Virus record (IMG/VR): IMGVR_UViG_3300042898_004618 | Coordinates: 1 to 24,030 of that record | Strand: one strand, 5' to 3' | Origin: a virus | Length of the DNA stretch: 24,030 nucleotides | Shown here: piece by piece, positions 3,481 through 21,531 of the stretch | How the letters are laid out: every line of letters starts with the position of its first letter | Position numbering within the stretch: the stretch's first letter is position 1 | Notes under the pieces: model-generated | What the model was told of the DNA's origin: nothing | Seen by the model: only the letters and a program-made list of their open reading frames with translations | Databases searched by the model: none | Program-made: the position numbers and the translations under genes

Positions 3481-4167
3481 ATGGCTAACTCAAAAGATAA
3501 CATCATCAATTCACTAGTTCAAGTAGAAGAAAATTTACCAGAATCTTCTATCAGATATTTTAAAGATATCAAAGAAACTGATAAGCCTTTAATTCCTCTG
3601 CCTCCTGATCATATGGCAGACATTACATACCCTCAATTTATAGAGGTTAGGTGTGCAATTTGCTCCTCCCATTTAAGAAACATAGCAGAACATGTTTATC
3701 TTGAAAGTGGAAAGAAACCCCAAGCTGTAATTAAGTTTTTTGAAAGGCATTTTGGAGCTAGGCTAAACTGGACACAAGTTTCTACTCACATGGATAGTCA
3801 TTGTGATTTTAAGAAACTTGTAACTTCTGGCTTAAAGAGTTACGAACACCAAGAAGAGTTAATTGCCCCTTGGATATTTAGAGAAAATCAATTAGCTCTT
3901 ACTGCATTAATGGTTGAACTTGATGATGTCAGAGGCATTGATTGTAGCAAAAACAATGATCTGAAATTGAAAAGAGCTGCAATGGTAGAAAAGCTTATTA
4001 GTAAAATCCTTGATATCAAAGACAAAAGAGACAATCAAGGTGTATTCTCAATTAATGTTTTTGAGATATTATCCGAACTTCATGACAAATTCGAAAGTGA
4101 GCATGACAAAAGACTATTAAGAGATGAACTTAAAAAGCTGAGAGAAAAGCTTAAGCAAGAAAATTAA
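3481..4167 (+). CDS. Putative terminase small subunit with Zn/HTH-like motif
   Basis: The protein has 228 residues, directly upstream of and overlapping the large terminase by one base (TAATG). Residues 58-108 show C58-x2-C61, then a helix-rich segment like an HTH ('GKKPQAVIKFFERHFG'), then H103, H107 and C108. This is the pattern of small DNA-binding domains of the type 'C.iC......ie..l..g.s...ia..f......v..H...H'. The C-terminal third is a charged coiled-coil-like helix ending 'LRDELKKLREKLKQEN', reminiscent of the oligomerising helices of small terminases. The role proposed is recognition of the phage genome and delivery to TerL. Evidence is motif plus position; small terminases are too diverse for a firm call by eye. 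No clear Shine-Dalgarno precedes the ATG. Confidence 0.6.
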   Translation: MANSKDNIINSLVQVEENLPESSIRYFKDIKETDKPLIPLPPDHMADITYPQFIEVRCAICSSHLRNIAEHVYLESGKKPQAVIKFFERHFGARLNWTQVSTHMDSHCDFKKLVTSGLKSYEHQEELIAPWIFRENQLALTALMVELDDVRGIDCSKNNDLKLKRAAMVEKLISKILDIKDKRDNQGVFSINVFEILSELHDKFESEHDKRLLRDELKKLREKLKQEN

Positions 4168-6293
4168 TGAGAAAAAACGCATCCAAAGCTTCATTGACAC
4201 AAGCTGAAATTAGACAGCAATTAATTCAGCAAGCAAATTTAGCATCCGAAAAGTTTAAGGACAGTGAATATGCAGAAGAGTTTGCTGATGAAGTAGCTCC
4301 TAATGTAAGATCTGAAATTGCGCCTCCAACAAAACCTGATAGAACAAGATTTAATCCTGATCAGATTGTTGATATTGTAACTTTCATTGAACATCCTTAT
4401 TTTTGTAATCTAAAACCTTATCCTTTACAAAGACTAATTCTAAAATGTTTTTATATGGGACAGGAAGGAAATACAGATTTAGTAATTCAAGACATTCCAG
4501 AAGAAGAAAGAGTTGGGTGTGATGGATGTGTATGGGATTTTGTAAAGAAAAATGAGCATAAGTCTGTTGAAATGCACAAGCAAAACAGACCATTTAAAGC
4601 TTCATTTTCAGTTATTAATTCTCCCTGTTTAACATGTGATCGAATGGATAAAGATATTATTCAACAAAGATTTGAACATGAGAAAGACAATGCAACTAAC
4701 CCAGATGCTTTAAAGAAAATTGAGCAACTCTTAGAAAGACCATTCATAGATAATTTCCAAACAGAAAAAGACTTATTATATTCAGAAGAGTTTGATCCAA
4801 AATTGCGTATGCAAATTATGGATAAATGTAATAACAGATACAAGTTTCAAGAATTAGTGCTAGTACTTGGAAGACGTAGTGGTAAATCATTCCTTGTTTC
4901 TGCAATTGGTTTGTATGAATTATATAGACTAATTTCTATGGGTCATCCTCAAGCAAGATATGGCTTGATGGAGTTTGATGCGATTTATCTGTTAAACGTG
5001 GCTAAGAATGAAGAGCAGGCTAAAAATGCTATCTTCGCAAAACTTAAACAAACTGTATTAGCCTCTCCATTTTTTCAACCATATATTGGCAAAGATACAG
5101 AATTAGAAATGCGGTTCTTTACTGAAAATGATCGTAAAGAAAATGAAAGAAGAGAAACTGCTGGATTAAACTTATTTTCTGGGTCATTAGTTTTAAAGTG
5201 CGGTTCTAGTAGTGCATCTGGTCTCGTTGGTCTCACTTGTTGGAGTGTGATCATGGACGAAATTGCTGCTATGGCAGGAGACAATCCTGATTCTGGTCTT
5301 GACTATGATTTATATAATGATCTAAAACCTTCTCTTGCTACATTTGGGCGTGATGGAAAGATGATGATGCTTTCCAACCCTAAAGGCCCAATTGGATTAC
5401 TTTATGACTTGCACGAAAATAGACAAGACGATCCATCCACTCTTGTTATGCGTGGCCCTACTTGGCTTGTAAATCCTAATATTGACAGAGATTTTCTAGA
5501 GTCCGAAAAGAAGAAAAACCCTACTGAATATCAAATGCAATATGGAGCAGAATTTGGGGCTTCTTCATCTGATCCTATGTTTGCTGAAGATGATATTAAT
5601 AGATTCTTTTCATCTATGTCAATGGTTAAAAGATCTGAAAAAGGATTTGGTATGCATGATTATTTCTGCCATTTAGACCCTGCTAGGACTTCTGACTATT
5701 ATGCTTTAGCTGTTGCACATACCGAAGCTATTATTGGACAAATGGGTGCTGATGGAAGAATTATGAGAAGAATCGTAATTGATCATATACACTTCTGGAA
5801 TCCATTAACTAAGAACCAACCTATAGAAGAAAAAACAATTGAAGAATATGTTTTAGATTTACACAAAAGATTTAGGTTTAGACAAGTAAGTATAGACCAA
5901 TGGAACTCGCAATCTTCAGTAATAAAGCTTCAAACTTTAGGTGTACCAATTATTGAAAAGCAATTCAACAAAAACTATAAAGAAAGTATTTACACAGAAT
6001 TGGCAACATTAATTAGAGAAGACAGAATTGATATTTATGATATTTCTGGTGGAGCATATTTAGATAAATCAGGAAATAAGCATCCTTTAAATGAAATTAA
6101 AGAAGCTAAAAATCAATTCTTATTTCTTCAAAAAAAATGGAAAGGAAAAAGATTTGCAATTGAAGCTCTGTCTGGATATCACGATGATATTTGTGATGCT
6201 GTGGCAGCTGCTGCTTATGAAGCACTATTTGCTAAGATTGCAAAAACATTACCCAAGTCAAGGACGATTAATATGAGCGGAAGAATAAGATAA
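4167..6293 (+). CDS. terL: Terminase large subunit (TerL) with N-terminal Cys insertion
   Basis: This is the motor ATPase/nuclease that packages phage DNA into the prohead; 708 residues. The ATPase domain has Walker A GRRSGKS at residues 235-241, Walker B VIMDE at 361-365 (catalytic E365) and coupling motif LSNPKG at about 402-407. The RNase-H-like nuclease domain shows D504 (HLDPARTSDYY), D577 (SIDQWN) and D673/D674/D677 (YHDDICDA). The region between the N-terminal adaptor motif ('YPLQRLILKCFY', about 85-96) and Walker A is unusually long. It carries C118-x2-C121 and C154-x2-C157, a putative zinc site. The start overlaps the stop of the preceding gene. TerL is separated from the portal gene by about 8.5 kb, unlike compact phages. 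Confidence 0.95.
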   Translation: MRKNASKASLTQAEIRQQLIQQANLASEKFKDSEYAEEFADEVAPNVRSEIAPPTKPDRTRFNPDQIVDIVTFIEHPYFCNLKPYPLQRLILKCFYMGQEGNTDLVIQDIPEEERVGCDGCVWDFVKKNEHKSVEMHKQNRPFKASFSVINSPCLTCDRMDKDIIQQRFEHEKDNATNPDALKKIEQLLERPFIDNFQTEKDLLYSEEFDPKLRMQIMDKCNNRYKFQELVLVLGRRSGKSFLVSAIGLYELYRLISMGHPQARYGLMEFDAIYLLNVAKNEEQAKNAIFAKLKQTVLASPFFQPYIGKDTELEMRFFTENDRKENERRETAGLNLFSGSLVLKCGSSSASGLVGLTCWSVIMDEIAAMAGDNPDSGLDYDLYNDLKPSLATFGRDGKMMMLSNPKGPIGLLYDLHENRQDDPSTLVMRGPTWLVNPNIDRDFLESEKKKNPTEYQMQYGAEFGASSSDPMFAEDDINRFFSSMSMVKRSEKGFGMHDYFCHLDPARTSDYYALAVAHTEAIIGQMGADGRIMRRIVIDHIHFWNPLTKNQPIEEKTIEEYVLDLHKRFRFRQVSIDQWNSQSSVIKLQTLGVPIIEKQFNKNYKESIYTELATLIREDRIDIYDISGGAYLDKSGNKHPLNEIKEAKNQFLFLQKKWKGKRFAIEALSGYHDDICDAVAAAAYEALFAKIAKTLPKSRTINMSGRIR

Positions 6294-7282: not shown

Positions 7283-8407
7283 ATGGTATATGACTATTTA
7301 ATTATTGGAGCCGGATTTTTCGGCTCCATTTTTGCTTATGAAGCTAATAAAATAGGCAAGAAAGTTTTAGTTATCGATCAAAGAAATCACATTGGTGGAA
7401 ATTGTTACACTGAACCACATGAAGATTATCATATACATAAATATGGGCCTCATATATTTCACACATCTAAGAAATACATTTGGGATTATTTAAATCAATT
7501 TTCAGAATTCAATAATTATTCTCATAGAGTCAAAGCAATAAATCATGGCTATATATATTCTTTGCCTATCAATCTATTAACAATTAATCAAATATGGCCT
7601 GATGCAAATACCCCTGATAAAGCCATAGCAAGAATACAAGCTGAAATTGTGCCTTGTGAAAATCCAAAAAACTTAGAAGAACATATATTATCTCTTGTTG
7701 GCCCTACTATTTACAAAACTTTAATTTATGGTTACACAAAAAAACAATGGGGTAAAGAACCTAAATATTTACCATCTTCAATTATAAAAAGATTACCAAT
7801 TAGGTATACATTTGACGACAGCTATTATCCAGACCAAGATGTTTATCAAGGCATACCAATAAACGGATACACGCCAATATTTGAAAAATTGCTAAAAAAC
7901 ATTGATATTGAGTTAAATGTTGACTTCTTTAATGATAGATCATATTGGGAATCGAAAGCTCATAAAATAGTGTATACAGGTCAAATTCAAAGATATTTTG
8001 ATTGTATGTATGGTGAATTAGAATATAGATCACTTGATTTTAAAAATTATGAAGTTATGACTGACTTTCAAGGATGTTCACAAATGAATTATCCTGATGA
8101 AAATACACCTTGGACCAGAATAATACAGCACAAACATTTCACGAAAAGTAAATCCAAAAATGACTTAATTACCTATGAATATTCAAAAAAATATGATTCT
8201 CAAGATTTAAACAGCCAGCCATATTATTCAGTTAACGATGAAAAAAATAATCTTATTTATGAGAGATATCAAGAATATTACCAAAAGTTTACTAAAAACT
8301 TAATTATTGGTGGACGTTTAGGAAATTATAGATATTACGATATGGATATGACTATTGCTAATGCATTGAACGTATGTAAAAGAGAATTAGCAGGAAATTC
8401 AGTTTAA
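7283..8407 (+). CDS. glf: UDP-galactopyranose mutase
   Basis: This flavoenzyme interconverts UDP-galactopyranose and UDP-galactofuranose. Its length of 374 residues is normal for the family. It has the N-terminal FAD-binding motif GAGFFG (about residues 9-14) and the acidic end of the second strand ('VLVIDQRNHIGGNCY'). It also has 'KYGPHIFHT' (about 51-59), 'YTKKQWGKEPKYLP', the 'LEYRSLDF' strand, 'WTRIIQHKHF' and the C-terminal 'GRLGNYRYYDMD' signature. Deviations: the usual 'YTGPID' reads YTGQIQ, and the usual 'EYP' reads EYS. So it may have altered kinetics or substrate, although the flavin and most substrate motifs are intact. It sits as a single sugar gene inside the structural block with no other glycan genes in view. 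It may supply Galf for virion glycosylation or remodel the host surface (inference). No Shine-Dalgarno precedes the ATG. Confidence 0.93.
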   Translation: MVYDYLIIGAGFFGSIFAYEANKIGKKVLVIDQRNHIGGNCYTEPHEDYHIHKYGPHIFHTSKKYIWDYLNQFSEFNNYSHRVKAINHGYIYSLPINLLTINQIWPDANTPDKAIARIQAEIVPCENPKNLEEHILSLVGPTIYKTLIYGYTKKQWGKEPKYLPSSIIKRLPIRYTFDDSYYPDQDVYQGIPINGYTPIFEKLLKNIDIELNVDFFNDRSYWESKAHKIVYTGQIQRYFDCMYGELEYRSLDFKNYEVMTDFQGCSQMNYPDENTPWTRIIQHKHFTKSKSKNDLITYEYSKKYDSQDLNSQPYYSVNDEKNNLIYERYQEYYQKFTKNLIIGGRLGNYRYYDMDMTIANALNVCKRELAGNSV

Positions 8408-14826: not shown

Positions 14827-17193
14827 ATGATTTCCAAGAATGCACCTACATTAGCAAACGTTTTAAAAACAGCAGCGCAAAATGTATCGGGAGAGAAAGT
14901 TTCATCAGCAGAATATTCAGGACAATATGCTTATTCTAGAATTGCAACTGGACTAGGACCGTCTGTAAATTCTAAAACTTCTCAAATATCCGGTGGTAAC
15001 AATACAATGACCACCGCACCAAACTTTTACTCTCCATTCCTTACTCCTACATCTTTTTCAATTCCAAATGCTAGACGTGAAGTTTATCTTTGGGCGAACT
15101 GGTGGAGGAACAATGAGCCAAAAATTGCTGCAGCCATTAACTTCTATACCAACTACCCTTTCTCTGGTTGGAAATTAGAATGTTCTTCTTCATATGTAAA
15201 AGATTATTTTGAAAAGTTAATTGAAGAACTTAACTTTCAAAAATGGCTTCCAGAAATCTCGAAAGTTTACCATTTACTTGGAGATGCATTCGTTCTTCTT
15301 TCAATTGATTGTGAGCATTGTCATGGATCAAATTGGGATGAAGAAAAGGACGAAGCCTGTAAACATGATGGCGCAACGTGGAAATCAGTATGTTTATTAA
15401 ATCCAGATAGTGTTCTCAAGTCTCCAAGTATGATTGACCAGGCAGGAATGTACACTTATAGACCATCTCCTGAAGAAATCAAAATTGTAAATGAGAGACA
15501 GCCAAGAGAATATTATGATGCTATTCCTGACAATGTAAAGAAACTTATATTAAAAGGCGATCCAATTCCGCTATCTCCAATTTCTATTCATCATTTTAAA
15601 CATGGATCTAACCCTTGGGAAGATTATGGTACTCCTCTTATTAGACCATTATTTCCAACATTAGCCTACAAAGATAAATTAAGGCAATCTCAATGGATTG
15701 TTGCAGAAAGACATATTCTTCCTGTAAAAGTTGTTAAAGTAGGAAATGACCAAAGACCAGCATCGCAAGAAGACCTTGACTCTGTTCAGGATGAGTTGGC
15801 TGCAATTGCTAACGACCCTAACCTTACTCTTGTCACTCACCATGCTTTTGACTTTGATTATGTTGGAGCTTCTGGAAAAGTACTTCAATTAACAAATGAA
15901 TATGAATTAATTGATCAGGAAATCCTTGATGGTGTAATGCTTAATAAAGCTCTTCTTAATGGCGAAGGTCCGACATATGGTAATGCTCAAGTTGGTCTTC
16001 TTGCAATGGCTCAAAGATTAGAGACATTTAGAAGAGAAGTGGCAAGATGGGTTGAGCAATGCGTATTTAAACCTGTGTCTGAATGGAATGGCTTTACAGT
16101 TGAAGGCGAAAGAGGACAAGAAGAAATTATCTTTCCTACAATCAAGTTTGATGATCTTCAATTAAGAGATGACACTGGTAAGTTGCAGATGCTTGTAACT
16201 GCTAACTCAAATGGTGTTATTTCCAATATGACTCTTATTGAACAATTTGGATTAGACCCAGATCAAGAAATTGAAAGACTAAGATTTGAGCAAGGGTCTA
16301 ACTTTGTTCAAAACCCTGCATTTGGAAACCTAGATTCAAGTAATGGTTTTCAATCAGGGGAAGTAACTGGTCAAGGTTTTGGTGCAGATATGGGAATGGG
16401 TTCACCTGGAATGGGAATGACACCTCCTCCTCCTGGTGGTATGGGTGGCATGGGTGGTGGAATGCCAGGTATGCCTATGGCTAGTAATTTTATTCAAAAT
16501 TATAGATTAGCTGCTTCTATTATGAACGAGCTTTACTATGAGAACTTGGAAAATAATTCGAGTTTGATCAATATAAGGGTTGCTGGAAGAAGATTTAAGT
16601 CAGCGGCACATGAGGGATTTATTAGAAGCTTATCACCTGTTTCTGGACGTGGTAAGCTTGGATCTTTACCTGAAACTTATGATGGTTTTGGTGGTGTTTT
16701 AAATCCTTTACCTTTTGGCGGACCTTATTCAAAAGCACTTAATTATGCCGCTGAATATGAACAATATGGCTTTGCAAATAGTGAAGATACAAGAAATGTT
16801 TATGCTGCAAAGAAAATGGAAAAACCACCAGCACAAATGTTTACCTCAATAGAAAAGAAACTTTATGGTCTTTTACTTTCTATTAATTTACCTTATCCAT
16901 TGTATGCTCAATATTCCGCTGGTCCTACTATGGACTATCAACTAGATGCTGCAATTCCTACTCTTAAAATTGGAGTTGAAGCTGATGGTGAAATATGGCA
17001 CAACAACTCTGGAAAAATTGCAAAAGATAAAAGAAGAGATATCGAACTTGCTTCTAATGGATGGGTCATGTTAAGGTTCACAGATAAAGAATTAAATGAT
17101 CATCCACAAGATGTACTAAATGTTGTTATGCAAGCAATACGAAAGAAAACTGGAAAAACTGAAGGACAAAATCCAGATGAAATAAAAATTTAA
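14827..17193 (+). CDS. Portal protein fused to C-terminal VSR/DUF559-like nuclease
   Basis: The protein has 788 residues, far longer than most portals (about 450-600). Residues about 75-500 are a portal body: 'REVYLWANWWRNNEPKIAAA' opens a typical portal N-terminus, with 'YHLLGDAFVLLSID' in the wing. 'DCEHCHGSNWDEEKDEACKH' adds an apparent zinc site (C162, C165, C178, H180). Residues 513-552 form a Gly/Met/Pro linker. Residues about 665-772 match the VSR/DUF559 PD-(D/E)XK fold: 'IEKKLYGLL', 'AQYSAGPTMDYQLDAAIP', 'KIGVEADGEIWH', 'KDKRRDIELASNGWVMLRF'. Likely catalytic residues are D707, E718 and D720, with H725. The portal forms the DNA channel of the head; what the nuclease cuts is unknown. 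The start has no Shine-Dalgarno, so a later start is possible, but portal-like sequence begins well after it. Confidence 0.9.
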   Translation: MISKNAPTLANVLKTAAQNVSGEKVSSAEYSGQYAYSRIATGLGPSVNSKTSQISGGNNTMTTAPNFYSPFLTPTSFSIPNARREVYLWANWWRNNEPKIAAAINFYTNYPFSGWKLECSSSYVKDYFEKLIEELNFQKWLPEISKVYHLLGDAFVLLSIDCEHCHGSNWDEEKDEACKHDGATWKSVCLLNPDSVLKSPSMIDQAGMYTYRPSPEEIKIVNERQPREYYDAIPDNVKKLILKGDPIPLSPISIHHFKHGSNPWEDYGTPLIRPLFPTLAYKDKLRQSQWIVAERHILPVKVVKVGNDQRPASQEDLDSVQDELAAIANDPNLTLVTHHAFDFDYVGASGKVLQLTNEYELIDQEILDGVMLNKALLNGEGPTYGNAQVGLLAMAQRLETFRREVARWVEQCVFKPVSEWNGFTVEGERGQEEIIFPTIKFDDLQLRDDTGKLQMLVTANSNGVISNMTLIEQFGLDPDQEIERLRFEQGSNFVQNPAFGNLDSSNGFQSGEVTGQGFGADMGMGSPGMGMTPPPPGGMGGMGGGMPGMPMASNFIQNYRLAASIMNELYYENLENNSSLINIRVAGRRFKSAAHEGFIRSLSPVSGRGKLGSLPETYDGFGGVLNPLPFGGPYSKALNYAAEYEQYGFANSEDTRNVYAAKKMEKPPAQMFTSIEKKLYGLLLSINLPYPLYAQYSAGPTMDYQLDAAIPTLKIGVEADGEIWHNNSGKIAKDKRRDIELASNGWVMLRFTDKELNDHPQDVLNVVMQAIRKKTGKTEGQNPDEIKI
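16363..16482 (+). repeat. Gly/Met/Pro-rich linker repeat in portal
   Basis: Repeated GGT/ATG/GGA codons encode MGMGSPGMGM and GGMGGMGGGMPGMPM segments (residues 513-552). They separate the portal body from the C-terminal extension. Confidence 0.75.
16819..17142 (+). other. VSR/DUF559-like nuclease domain within portal gene
   Basis: This marks residues about 665-772 of the portal protein. The D707 ... E718-x-D720 arrangement, the following W-H pair and the 'DK.RD..L...GW.vlRF' helix-strand unit are the hallmarks of this PD-(D/E)XK subfamily. The domain is complete and in frame, with no stop between it and the portal. Confidence 0.82.
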
Positions 17194-17213
17194 TTCTTTT
17201 CGAATGTGTACAA

Positions 17214-17247
17214 AAAACCTATCGATTTCGATAGGTTTTATTGTTTT
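17214..17247 (+). terminator. Rho-independent terminator after portal
   Basis: The perfect 12-bp stem AAAACCTATCGA / TCGATAGGTTTT encloses TT and is followed by ATTGTTTT. It separates portal from the protease transcription unit. Confidence 0.9.
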
Positions 17248-17290: not shown

Positions 17291-17353
17291 ATGTCTAAAA
17301 TTGTTTCAGCATTAAACAATTGCAGGAGAAAAATTTATTTATGTACAGAGTAG
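17291..17353 (+). CDS. Possible 20-codon upstream frame overlapping protease start
   Basis: An ATG frame (MSKIVSALNNCRRKIYLCTE) spans the hairpin and ribosome site of the protease gene and stops 11 bases into it. The upstream Shine-Dalgarno is weak. It may be a leader peptide that opens the hairpin, or chance. Confidence 0.2.
   Translation: MSKIVSALNNCRRKIYLCTE
17301..17323 (+). promoter_or_regulatory. Hairpin immediately before protease ribosome site
   Basis: The 8-bp perfect stem AATTGTTT / AAACAATT (about 17299-17321) ends only two bases before the AGGAG of the protease gene. It could modulate initiation there. No terminator T-run follows. Confidence 0.5.
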
Positions 17354-20300
17354 CAATAGGTGGGCCTATAACAATTAATAGCTTTCTCACCGAACATGAC
17401 AGAAATACTGCAAGAGAACATATGCTTAAAACTGCTTCCAAACAAATGAGAGAAGCTGCTAAAATTGGTTTACAATCTTTATACGCAGATCCTTCAGAAG
17501 TTTTAGAAAAATATAAAGATTTCGATATTGTCAAAGAAATGAAAGCTCGTAAGGATGCTAAACTTCTTTGGGTAAGAGCTAGATCCATTGATGCAGACAC
17601 AGTTAATCATAATGGAGACTATTTTTCTAAAGCTGAATTATTAAAAGAAGTTGAAGTTAAAGGCGAAAAAGTACCAGCTTATAAAACATTCGAAGGTGTG
17701 CCTATTTACACCAACCATAAGAATGACGATATAGAACAAGCAAAAGGTATGGTTGTTTACGCAGAATGGGAAGAATCTGAGAATTGTGTTTATTGTACAT
17801 TTTTCGTAGATGAAGAAGCTTACCCTGATATTGCAAGAAATATTAGAACTGGTGTAATTCATGATGTCTCAATGGGATGTTCAGTTGCCTACGGAATATG
17901 TTCTAAATGCGGCAATAAAGCATACACAGAAAAAGAGTATTGTTCTTGTCTTAAAAAATGGAAAGGCAAAAAAGAAAATGGAACAGGTAAGTCCATTTAT
18001 GAAGAAAACTATGATTTAAAATTCATTGAACTTTCTTGTGTAGGTGACGGTGCTTTTGATACCTGTGAAATTAAAGAAATCTACGATGTTGAAGATATCC
18101 TTAATGCCGCTACCGATGCTGAGAAGAAAGCATCTGAGTTGATTTCTAACATTGTAATTGCTCAACAAGGCGCTCCATCAGACCCAACTGTTAGACATGA
18201 ATATGAAGAATGTTTAAGAGTAGCAGAAGATACCACTAGAACTGCAATTAGATTAGCTCAATCTGCCGGTACTTTAGTAGGCGGACAATTGATGGCTGGA
18301 GAGGGCGCAAATCAAAACTCTACAGTCCAAGCAGTTTTAGGAGCTTTGGGAATTGATCCTAGAGCTGGTTTAAATATTTTAGATCTTATCAATTTATCAC
18401 TTAACTTTTTAGAAGTAGCTGTGATGAATATGTTTGCACGTAAAGACAATGTTGATTTAGTACACGTAGGCAAAATCACTAAATCAATGGCAGATCTTCA
18501 ATCAACAATGCAAGATATGATTGATGATGGAATTGATGTTGGTTCAGGTCAAGGGCAACAACCCTTAAATCAACAACAATTACAACAACAGCCTCAGCAA
18601 CAACCACAACAGCCTCAACAAGGTAATGTTGCTCCTGCTAACTATATGCCAGCAGGAAATGTAGGCAGAATGATTGAGCCTGCATTATTTACAGCTCCAC
18701 AACAAGGAGTTGGAGGGGCTGTTGCATTAGCTTCTTCAACACATAATCTTGTATGGGCATCCAAAGATGGCAGAAGAGAAGTCTTTGCCAGCACATCAAC
18801 TCAACCTAAGGATAGTTCGTTTATAAAACTAACTAAGGGATTGATTCAATTCAAAGAAGCATTGTCAGATAATACATCTATTGCTTCTGTTACACAAAAC
18901 GTTATTAGAGTTGCTAATGAACGAAACAAAAATATTAGAAACAATACGCCCCATTCTCTAAGGGCGGAGGGAAATAATCAAATGGATCATTTTGCTAAGA
19001 TAGCGTCTGAACAACGCAAAAAATTAGCTGCCGCCGTTACAATCGATTTTAAGGTTGAGGATGGGGCTGGTAATCGTTTAGTTCTTTCAACAGATGGTTC
19101 TATTACTGGATTCACTAATGGTAATAGATCAAGCTGGGAACCAATTCTTTCTGAACAACAACTTTCTGCTATGGAAAGTGGCCAAGGTGCTAGAGTTGCT
19201 GCAGATCTTCTTAAAGATTTTGTAAAGACTGCAATCAAGGCTCCTCATATGGACAAAGATGTTAAAGAAGTTGAACTTAAGGGTGAACGTAAGGGTTTAC
19301 CTTACAAAAATATTGCTGATGGCATTGCTACACAACATGCAGATGCACATGCAGACATGACAAGAGAAGAAGCTCTTGAAAGTTTGAGAAAAGATAATGC
19401 AGAGTATGGTGAAGAAGCATTAATCTCAGTTGGCCTTTATGGTCATAAAGTAAAAGATGCTGATGTAAAAGAAACTTTATCTGAATTAGTTGCACAAGCT
19501 AATAAGGGTGTTTCTGAAGAAGGACTTAACGAAAGATTGGAATGCTGCAGAGTAGAAGGTTCTGCTCCAGCTCATGAAGTTATGGTTCATACAGTTGAAG
19601 CATTAGGTCATGCTGTAGTTGAATCATACTCCACTCCATCTGAAGTTGTTGAAGCTTCTACAAAACTTGCAAATGAAGAACTTTTACCTGAAATGATTGC
19701 AACAGCATCAGCTGGTACAAGTGTTCGTGCAAAGCTTGCATCTAAAGCAGATTTCTTTAAGAGTGAAAGAGTTTCAAGCTCACCTTTAACAGCTGTACTT
19801 ACATCCTTAGGAGATAGAGTTTCAAAGACAGTCACCGCTGGTGATCTTGCTGAAGCACTAAGAGTTGCAGCCAGTGAAGTTGATTTCACAATGGAATCTG
19901 TTACAAAACTTGCTGAATTAAAAATGTCAAGTGCTAAAGGTTCTACGTCTGAAGCAAAAGCTAAAGTTTCCAAATCAGAAGAACTCAGAACTGCACTTAA
20001 AGGCAATGTAACTGGCGATGCTTTAATTTCAAAGAACGATTTAAAGTCAGTTATTTCTGCAATGGCTATGTCGGCTGATGATACAGATTCAACACCTGAA
20101 GAAGTTGCAACAGAAGTTGAAGAAATGGATGAAGAAGAAATGATTGCTGAAGTTAACAAAGCAAGAACAGCTTCTGCCACTAGCGCAAGATTAAAATCTA
20201 GAGCTAGACGAGAATTCTGGGGCGAAAGAGTTGCTTCCAAAACTAATCTTTCAACAAATGTTATTGGCTGGTTAGCAGATTATGCTACTAATTTTAACCT

Positions 20301-21531
20301 TTCAACTAGATCTATTGTAACAGCTGCTAAGAAGCTTGTTTCTGATGGTGAATTAGCTGAGAAGTTGATTGTTAAGGCAATCGAAACAAAACAAAATGCT
20401 GAAAGAACAGCAGCTATGCAAGTTACTCATGAAACATCTGATTCTATCAGATTTGTCTGCAGAACTGAAGATTTAGATGGCCTTAAGCCTAATGACGAAG
20501 GTTTTGAAGATGCTTTCAGACAAAAGGCAATGGAAGTTCTTCAAGGAAATGGTTTTACAGTAGACCCTAACACATTCTCATTCACAGATTTGAATGTATC
20601 AGCTTATGGCGACATCAATGCAACTGTATCTTCAAGAACATCTAAAACATTCTCAGCACAGAATACTTCTGAAGTACCTGTAGTTGGTGGTGAGATGGGC
20701 CCAGTAGAAGAAATGGGTGAGCCACAAGTCATTATGACCGATGAAGCTAGAATGGCAAGAAATGAAAGAAGAAGCAGAATCTTAAATAAATATGCTCAAA
20801 TGACAGCGCCTGGTCAAGCGATGGGTGGTGGAATGGGCGCTCCAGCTGCACCTGATATGGGCATGGATGCTGGTGCTTTTACTGGTCAAGGTATTTCCGC
20901 TATGACCACAGATCCAATGGCAGCAGATGCTCCAGCGGGTGAAGATATGGATGCAATGTCAGAACCAGGTGATAAGAAGCCATGGGGCACAGTTTGCCCT
21001 GTTTGTGGATCTGATGATGTAGATGTTGCTGAATCAAAGGGTTCCTGTAATTCATGTGGATCTACTTATGAGATTCAAATGTCCTTAAAGCTAATTTCTG
21101 ATGGAACAGGCGGACAAGGCGAAAAGGATGAAGAACCTGAAGCAGACATGGGTGACATGGGTGCTATGGGAGATCTTGGTGCTCCTCCAGCTGCTCCAGT
21201 TGGTGGACCAATGGGTGCTCCAGCTCCAGGTGGAGCTCCTGCAGCAGGCATGCCTGGTTTACCAGCAACAGCTTCAGTTAAGGGTTTATTTAGATTGGCC
21301 GCTACAGTGGATGCTGATGTTTATCTTGAAACTGCAAAGGAAGGATTTACCAGAACAGCATCTAAGAGATTGCCAATCGGTATGGTATGTCCTAAGTGCG
21401 GCAATAGAGAAGCAAACAAGGTTAAGGACACTTCTTTCTGCCATTCTTGTGGAAATATATCCAAAACTACTGTTGCACAAAACAAGAAGAATCCAAGCAA
21501 ACTTGACGTTACAATTACTTGGATTGACTAA
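17341..21531 (+). CDS. Prohead protease with long scaffold-like extension and zinc ribbons
   Basis: The start is ATG 17341 behind AGGAG at 17324; a TTG at 17320 would put that site inside the gene. The protein has 1396 residues, several times longer than usual prohead proteases (about 200-250). Residues about 70-245 are the protease: H126 in 'VPIYTNHKND' and S177 in 'HDVSMGCSV' fit the catalytic His/Ser of prohead proteases. A Cys cluster follows (C187, C190, C201, C203). Residues 404-427 are a Gln/Pro run. About 540-1110 is an Ala/Lys/Glu-rich, mainly helical scaffold-like region with many R/K-[VTI]-A peptides. From about 1157 it is Gly/Met/Pro/Ala-rich with two CxxC...CxxC zinc ribbons ('CPVCGS...CNSCGS', 'CPKCGN...CHSCGN'). 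It would process the head interior before packaging. The single chain suggests a protease-core fusion; an internal start at 18982 may release the scaffold part. Confidence 0.82.
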   Translation: MYRVAIGGPITINSFLTEHDRNTAREHMLKTASKQMREAAKIGLQSLYADPSEVLEKYKDFDIVKEMKARKDAKLLWVRARSIDADTVNHNGDYFSKAELLKEVEVKGEKVPAYKTFEGVPIYTNHKNDDIEQAKGMVVYAEWEESENCVYCTFFVDEEAYPDIARNIRTGVIHDVSMGCSVAYGICSKCGNKAYTEKEYCSCLKKWKGKKENGTGKSIYEENYDLKFIELSCVGDGAFDTCEIKEIYDVEDILNAATDAEKKASELISNIVIAQQGAPSDPTVRHEYEECLRVAEDTTRTAIRLAQSAGTLVGGQLMAGEGANQNSTVQAVLGALGIDPRAGLNILDLINLSLNFLEVAVMNMFARKDNVDLVHVGKITKSMADLQSTMQDMIDDGIDVGSGQGQQPLNQQQLQQQPQQQPQQPQQGNVAPANYMPAGNVGRMIEPALFTAPQQGVGGAVALASSTHNLVWASKDGRREVFASTSTQPKDSSFIKLTKGLIQFKEALSDNTSIASVTQNVIRVANERNKNIRNNTPHSLRAEGNNQMDHFAKIASEQRKKLAAAVTIDFKVEDGAGNRLVLSTDGSITGFTNGNRSSWEPILSEQQLSAMESGQGARVAADLLKDFVKTAIKAPHMDKDVKEVELKGERKGLPYKNIADGIATQHADAHADMTREEALESLRKDNAEYGEEALISVGLYGHKVKDADVKETLSELVAQANKGVSEEGLNERLECCRVEGSAPAHEVMVHTVEALGHAVVESYSTPSEVVEASTKLANEELLPEMIATASAGTSVRAKLASKADFFKSERVSSSPLTAVLTSLGDRVSKTVTAGDLAEALRVAASEVDFTMESVTKLAELKMSSAKGSTSEAKAKVSKSEELRTALKGNVTGDALISKNDLKSVISAMAMSADDTDSTPEEVATEVEEMDEEEMIAEVNKARTASATSARLKSRARREFWGERVASKTNLSTNVIGWLADYATNFNLSTRSIVTAAKKLVSDGELAEKLIVKAIETKQNAERTAAMQVTHETSDSIRFVCRTEDLDGLKPNDEGFEDAFRQKAMEVLQGNGFTVDPNTFSFTDLNVSAYGDINATVSSRTSKTFSAQNTSEVPVVGGEMGPVEEMGEPQVIMTDEARMARNERRSRILNKYAQMTAPGQAMGGGMGAPAAPDMGMDAGAFTGQGISAMTTDPMAADAPAGEDMDAMSEPGDKKPWGTVCPVCGSDDVDVAESKGSCNSCGSTYEIQMSLKLISDGTGGQGEKDEEPEADMGDMGAMGDLGAPPAAPVGGPMGAPAPGGAPAAGMPGLPATASVKGLFRLAATVDADVYLETAKEGFTRTASKRLPIGMVCPKCGNREANKVKDTSFCHSCGNISKTTVAQNKKNPSKLDVTITWID
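18550..18621 (+). repeat. CAA/CAG repeat encoding Gln/Pro linker
   Basis: Short runs of CAA, CAG and CCA/CCT codons encode residues 404-427 of the protease-scaffold protein. It marks the junction between the protease domain and the long extension. Confidence 0.8.
18965..18984 (+). promoter_or_regulatory. Internal Shine-Dalgarno and in-frame ATG in protease gene
   Basis: GCGGAGGG (18964-18971) precedes an in-frame ATG at 18982 by 10 bases. It is a G-rich island in AT-rich DNA, built with AGG and GCG codons that look uncommon here. Initiation would give an 849-residue product starting MDHFAKIASEQ, lacking the protease. Confidence 0.5.

Follow-up and report, generated by a model that had tools for sequence, protein, structure and literature searches.

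A portal protein joined to a predicted EDxHD/VSR-type nuclease domain across a large clade of uncultivated phages

Architecture and neighborhood of the portal-nuclease gene

The window, that is, the whole 24,030-base IMG/VR contig analyzed here, carries a frame (14827-17193) that runs uninterrupted through portal and nuclease regions for 788 codons (Table 1). Profile and fold matches confirm the organization predicted from the sequence, namely a portal protein followed by a linker and then by a PD-(D/E)XK nuclease domain of the EDxHD/VSR/DUF559 type. A preliminary description of this DNA had identified the N-terminal part as a portal, and this identification is borne out by profile and structure alike. 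The Pfam Portal_Mu model matches residues 219-463 over its cut-off (E 2.9e-10), and the portal family phrog_16240 is the best PHROGs match to the N-terminal part of the product (2.1e-39). A model of the full-length chain is of medium confidence (mean pLDDT 60.5, with low values in the linker), and its residues ~75-499 superimpose on solved portals with Z scores of 15-19; residues 44-470 of SPP1 gp6 align to model residues 81-495, and residues 74-515 of T4 gp20 to model residues 81-499. Fold, profile and a neighborhood of terminase and head genes all agree with membership in the portal class.

The gene sits within an ordinary head and packaging module, with the terminase large subunit gene (TerL) upstream, a head maturation protease-like gene directly downstream and, in relatives, the major capsid gene also downstream of the portal. 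A phmmer comparison of TerL with PDB chains gave no match. The 1403-aa product of the protease-like gene combines a protease-like N-terminus with a long Ala-rich tail and has thirteen [KR]xA[AS] motifs overall. A gene for UDP-galactopyranose mutase (7283-8407; Pfam GLF, 6.1e-65) lies amid the head and packaging genes, and just 3' of the portal gene (17209-17241) a hairpin followed by a run of T (aacctatcgatttcgataggtttt) looks like a transcription terminator.

Table 1. Positions in the window of the portal-nuclease gene, its predicted parts and the flanking packaging and head genes
Feature	Position	Strand	Basis
Terminase large subunit (TerL), upstream of the portal gene	4167..6293	+	phrog_2, 1.1e-27
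Portal-nuclease fusion gene, 788 aa	14827..17193	+	Single open frame; full-length homologues exist
Portal core, residues 71-495 (wing, stem, clip and crown by homology)	15037..16311	+	Portal_Mu; phrog_16240; model against solved portals
Flexible linker, residues 496-556, with a Gly/Met/Pro-rich stretch at ~515-551	16312..16494	+	Sequence; low pLDDT; dN/dS 0.22
Variable junction region, residues 557-660	16495..16806	+	Present in the near clade; missing in distant relatives, e.g. L259, L263, L322
Y559-[KR]-x-A562-[AS] motif (YRLAA in the window), candidate processing site	16501..16515	+	Conservation in relatives
EDxHD/VSR/DUF559-type PD-(D/E)XK nuclease domain, residues 672-775	16840..17151	+	Profile and fold matches
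Predicted catalytic D707 codon	16945..16947	+	Invariant in 80/80 non-redundant domains
Predicted catalytic E718-A719-D720; intein between E718 and residue 719 in five relatives	16978..16986	+	Domain alignment
Predicted catalytic H725 codon	16999..17001	+	80/80 domains
D734 to D738, two more invariant acidic residues	17026..17040	+	80/80 each
Head maturation protease-like gene, 1403 aa, directly downstream of the portal gene	17320..21531	+	phrog_18299, 3.2e-16 at residues 93-248

The nuclease domain and its active site

The Pfam DUF559 model matches residues 700-771 with E-values of 1.4e-7 for the whole chain and 5.9e-9 for the C-terminal part alone, at scores (31.7-36.2 bits) over the curated cut-off of 20.6; the MTES_1575 model also matches the domain, below its own cut-off. 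A family profile of the C-terminal region run against PDB sequences recovered 3hrl, an endonuclease-like protein (9e-6), and 3r3p, the catalytic domain of I-Bth0305I (6.6e-5). The AlphaFold model built for residues 566-788 has a mean pLDDT of 70.9, with values of about 76-92 in the nuclease domain, and superimposes on 3hrl with a Z score of 14.1 (93 residues, 1.8 A), on 3r3p with 13.2 and on the VSR-DNA structure 1cw0 with 11.0, other folds being weaker (TnsA 6.9, Hjc 6.4 and RecU about 5). Given these profile matches, and Z scores above those of TnsA and the Holliday-resolvase folds, we place the domain in the EDxHD/VSR/DUF559 branch of the PD-(D/E)XK nucleases. The preliminary description had read positions 16819-17142, which correspond to residues 665-772 and fall in this nuclease region, as a complete VSR/DUF559-like nuclease with D707, E718, D720 and H725; all four residues lie where it placed them, and the nuclease profile matches on which that reading had been made to hinge were obtained with DUF559, 3hrl and 3r3p.

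Across 80 non-redundant nuclease domains, ranging down to 30% identity with that of the window, D707, E718, H725, D734, R737, D738, G745, W746 and R750 are invariant, position 720 is Asp in 78 and Glu in two, and the E-D-H-D catalytic set is kept in all 80. With this set intact in the alignment, the nuclease is apparently a working one. A profile match over the cut-off, the fold and the catalytic residues all point to the same family, and the fold and the E-D-H-D set are held in common with I-Bth0305I and other EDxHD homing endonucleases and with VSR (DUF559 and MTES_1575 families). Those enzymes are encoded by free or intron-encoded genes, whereas here the nuclease is a domain of a structural protein; no added DNA-recognition domain was recognized in it. 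In all 12 of the long near-clade contigs, DUF559 matches over the cut-off are confined to the portal. L260, a smaller contig from an unrelated phage, has a stand-alone DUF559 gene at 3773-4216, whose product has an N-terminal hydrophobic stretch and is 48% identical to the portal nuclease. Scaffold-like and portal-like genes flank it, it is encoded on the other strand, and HNH-like genes are nearby. Remoter EDxHD-like domains occur in L264, L265 and L267 and in L266 and L268, behind Cys-rich zinc-finger-like repeats or inside a DNA methyltransferase-like frame.

E718 is split from D720 in five relatives (L298, L306, L319, L323 and L329) by an insert, 365-387 aa long, whose first residue is a Cys next to E718 and whose last is an Asn; the Cys that follows it replaces residue 719. 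LAGLIDADG_3 matches were obtained in all three of the nuclease-site inserts tested, one of them weak, and an intein-splicing model matched two of the three, below its cut-off. As the intein interrupts the E-x-D motif, the active site in these five contigs is predicted to be assembled only after protein splicing. Inteins typically occupy conserved functional sites in important proteins, and their placement here thus lends independent support to the importance of the nuclease active site; it marks that site as conserved and makes splicing-dependent activation testable. More generally, 51 of 120 portals are longer than 950 aa, as expected from inserted inteins, with recurrent sites near window residues 90, 350 and 380. 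The distant clade stands out for intein hot spots in its portal genes, where insertions occupy several positions (L259, L263, L298, L306, L319, L323, L329, L390 and others); the longest frame with inserts, of 2416 aa, is that of L390.

Distribution and shared history of the fusion

When the whole protein was the query, relatives, either full-length or truncated, turned up at 69 loci, with 48-95% identity over the entire chain. Wider scans, queried with the portal core only and thus blind to the nuclease, extended to contigs of up to 548 kb and to portals whose core segment is just 43-58% identical. The distinct portals that retain their 3' end number 120 and come from many metagenomes. In 119 of them the nuclease follows in frame; the remaining apparent absences, due to contig ends, were left out of the 120. 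The linkers of these 120 relatives vary from 37 to 106 aa (median 85) and are rich in Gly, Pro, Ala and Met. In the sole exception, contig 3300012000_000088 (L053/L287), the linker is interrupted by an in-frame TGA at L053 7678-7680, and the nuclease frame is open behind it; the TGA may mark a real split, or reflect readthrough or a sequencing error. A search for other portals with the same fusion, as proposed in the preliminary description, thus turned up many, all in uncultivated phages, and what had been described from a single phage is general to a large clade. That the fusion is real is supported by the open frame in the window and by its recurrence in 119 of the 120 complete portals; a stop or frameshift between portal and domain, which the same description had considered, is absent from the window and its relatives and is seen only as the TGA of L053.

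None of 50,697 phage records shows portal and nuclease together; the portal matches listed end near residue 500, and the nuclease matches in these records fall in helicases and other genes. Scans of 84,980 species genomes from bacteria and archaea found no relatives, and DUF559 is absent from Tunturiibacter phage Tunturi_5. An apparent MuF-DUF559 fusion in Gordonia phage Angelicage was rejected, because the DUF559 match and the MuF gene are on opposite strands. We found no account of a DUF559/VSR-portal fusion in the open-access literature, an absence that weighs little as open-access PMC alone was covered. Taken singly, portals fused to other domains, nucleases bound to portals and EDxHD nucleases are all known; what appears to be new is their combination, clade-wide and constrained, of which we found no description.

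Conservation along the chain was compared in a set of 39 portals (<97% identical). The mean fraction of the top residue is 0.834 in the nuclease core, 0.850 in the portal core and about 0.6 in linker and junction, and the pairwise dN/dS values, which are rough since dS is near saturation, are 0.048 for the nuclease, 0.042 for the portal core, 0.22 for the linker and 0.19 for the junction. Distances in the nuclease and the portal core are correlated (r 0.92), and the portal-core tree conflicts with none of the nuclease splits whose support is at least 0.9. These comparisons show that the nuclease is co-inherited with the portal, under purifying selection estimated to be as strong as that on the portal core. 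Conservation, dN/dS, congruent history and invariant residues together make a strong case against a read-through that arose recently by accident, and likewise against decay of the domain. They bear also on the idea that the fusion is a chimeric assembly, or the domain a dead relic kept for binding only: the in-frame TGA between the two frames of L053/L287 would suit it, but 119 distinct portals of many metagenomes share the fusion and the catalytic residues are kept throughout, which makes the idea barely credible.

A role in mobility can be judged by the same data. The homing endonuclease I-Bth0305I is among the closest solved relatives, the domain matches the PADLOC model called homing endonuclease (1.1e-6), and the 48% identical stand-alone relative in L260 lies among the head genes of an unrelated phage; hence the domain might be an EDxHD gene captured at the 3' end of the portal gene, domesticated or still mobile, and serving homing or competitor exclusion. 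Homing genes, however, are typically patchy and decay once fixed, whereas presence/absence polymorphism is not seen here (119 of 120 portals have the nuclease), the trees are congruent and dN/dS is 0.048. The domain has neither the patchy presence nor the separate history of a mobile homing gene, and a present role of this kind is quite unlikely. Capture of such an endonuclease through loss of a stop codon, an alternative raised in the preliminary description, therefore conflicts as a recent event or present state with universality, co-inheritance and purifying selection, and is plausible as the ancient origin of the fusion.

Possible roles at the portal vertex

In solved portals the C-terminal end of the aligned region is the crown. 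As the chain by homology exits the portal there, the linker and nuclease are predicted to begin on the inner side of the vertex, and from sequence and model we infer that the nuclease would be tethered at the lumenal crown rather than at the outer clip where terminase docks. Since portals are 12-mers, each would carry some twelve nuclease domains. The T4 portal crown is in contact with genomic DNA within the capsid (PMC9958956), and the C-terminus of the P22 portal projects inwards and is surrounded by ejection proteins (PMC4992974). Known C-terminal extensions of portals are more varied than the mostly Mu-F-like ones of the preliminary description, and include PBECR, 2H and InPase domains (PMC5512222) and the P22 barrel (PMC4992974). 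Of the roles suggested there, simple trimming of ends at the motor is made less direct by the predicted position of the portal C-terminus at the crown inside the head and not at the outer clip.

We propose, with a probability of roughly 0.4, that the nuclease processes DNA of the phage itself at the portal, while that DNA is being packaged or the head is being completed. The portal would display nucleases tethered at the crown, on the inner side of a vertex that all DNA crosses, and DNA entering the head would be nicked or cleaved by them at irregular structures or ends. Such cleavage would allow head completion and later genome ejection, and a VSR-like specificity, limited by structure or sequence, would spare the packaged genome. 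The job would be analogous to that of the T4 portal-vertex nucleases, the portal-bound gp49 and the head-completion gp4, here performed within the portal chain. T4 gp49 (Endonuclease VII) binds the portal gp20 and acts during packaging (PMC9958956), so that a nuclease is likewise held at the portal, but as a separate, non-covalently bound protein of a different fold. T4 gp4, like the head-completion nuclease of jumbo phages, is a virion DNase of the REase fold required for packaging (PMC7824862), as in the role proposed here; it differs in having a gene of its own and in belonging to the TnsA-like branch (Z 6.9 for TnsA versus 13-14 for the EDxHD relatives of the portal nuclease). A bolder version, in which an obligatory covalent nuclease makes the DNA gateway itself cut during packaging or head completion throughout the clade, with splicing licensing the activity in some members, we hold only tentatively.

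Several points stand against a packaging role. The crown faces the lumen, while branch stalls and the terminase cut occur at the outer face; a nuclease beside packaged DNA would need restraint; many near-clade genomes have a RusA-like resolvase of their own; the predicted topology derives from homology and a model of medium confidence; and Bacillus phage G (Donellivirus), which has a related head, manages without the domain. Phage G is the nearest isolate: the core of its portal gp14 is about 32% identical and is followed by a similar Gly/Pro-rich tail, and its gp27 is 47-50% identical to near-clade major capsid proteins, yet its portal lacks the nuclease domain, its genome has no DUF559 match and RuvC is present. 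Few machines of tailed viruses are as conserved as the portal, which is usually viewed as a channel, a sensor and a docking ring. A fixed catalytic nuclease on it, constrained like the portal fold throughout the clade, would add an enzymatic function and offer a direct handle on the packaging, finishing or delivery of very large genomes, and the sequences suggest that DNA processing of a new kind is built into the particle gateway of these giant phages.

Exit of the chain into the lumen by homology, together with the location of the P22 ejection proteins around the portal C-terminus (PMC4992974), is also compatible with a virion-carried effector, the main alternative, which we consider possible but somewhat unlikely. 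Here the prohead protease would free the nuclease at the linker or junction, and the enzyme would exit with the genome and cut host or competitor DNA early in infection. A [KR]-x-A motif follows the linker in all 39 near relatives, with Y559 and A562 invariant within a variable stretch; motifs of the form [KR][LVTIF]A[ASN] number 33 in the open reading frames of the window, about eight times the 4.3 expected from shuffled proteins; and a head-protease-like gene adjoins the portal gene. However, the motif-bearing junction is absent from the distant clade, and no obvious motif lies close to the N-termini of the major capsid proteins. Effector fusions in polyvalent proteins and MuF toxins similarly place an extra enzymatic domain on a portal or a MuF-type minor head protein, and portal fusions to PBECR, 2H and InPase are read as injected effectors (PMC5512222). 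Such domains (PBECR, 2H, InPase or variable toxins) usually vary and swap, whereas the portal nuclease is clade-universal, never exchanged and constrained like the portal core; it shares with ejected portal effectors the enzymatic fusion but not the variable, exchangeable domain. Because the known portal-vertex nucleases serve packaging and the domain is never exchanged, we rank a role in packaging or head completion slightly above ejection.

The T4 precedent could be taken further, with the domain as a portal-borne branch resolvase that stands in for portal-bound gp49 on stalled junctions. RuvC, present in phage G, is absent from 24 long contigs of the clade, and several distant genomes (494, 371 and 334 kb) are without RuvC, RusA or Endonuclease VII matches. 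On the other hand, a 548 kb contig has Endonuclease VII, the topology is lumenal, and the fold is nearer to VSR/EDxHD than to Hjc or RecU, so that we regard this role as very unlikely. Pure resolvase replacement, as deduced from missing RuvC, RecU and Endonuclease VII, was downgraded in view of RusA in many near-clade genomes: a RusA-like match is present in 9 of 12 near-clade contigs, over the cut-off in three, and a debranching nuclease is thus not obviously missing from the near clade.
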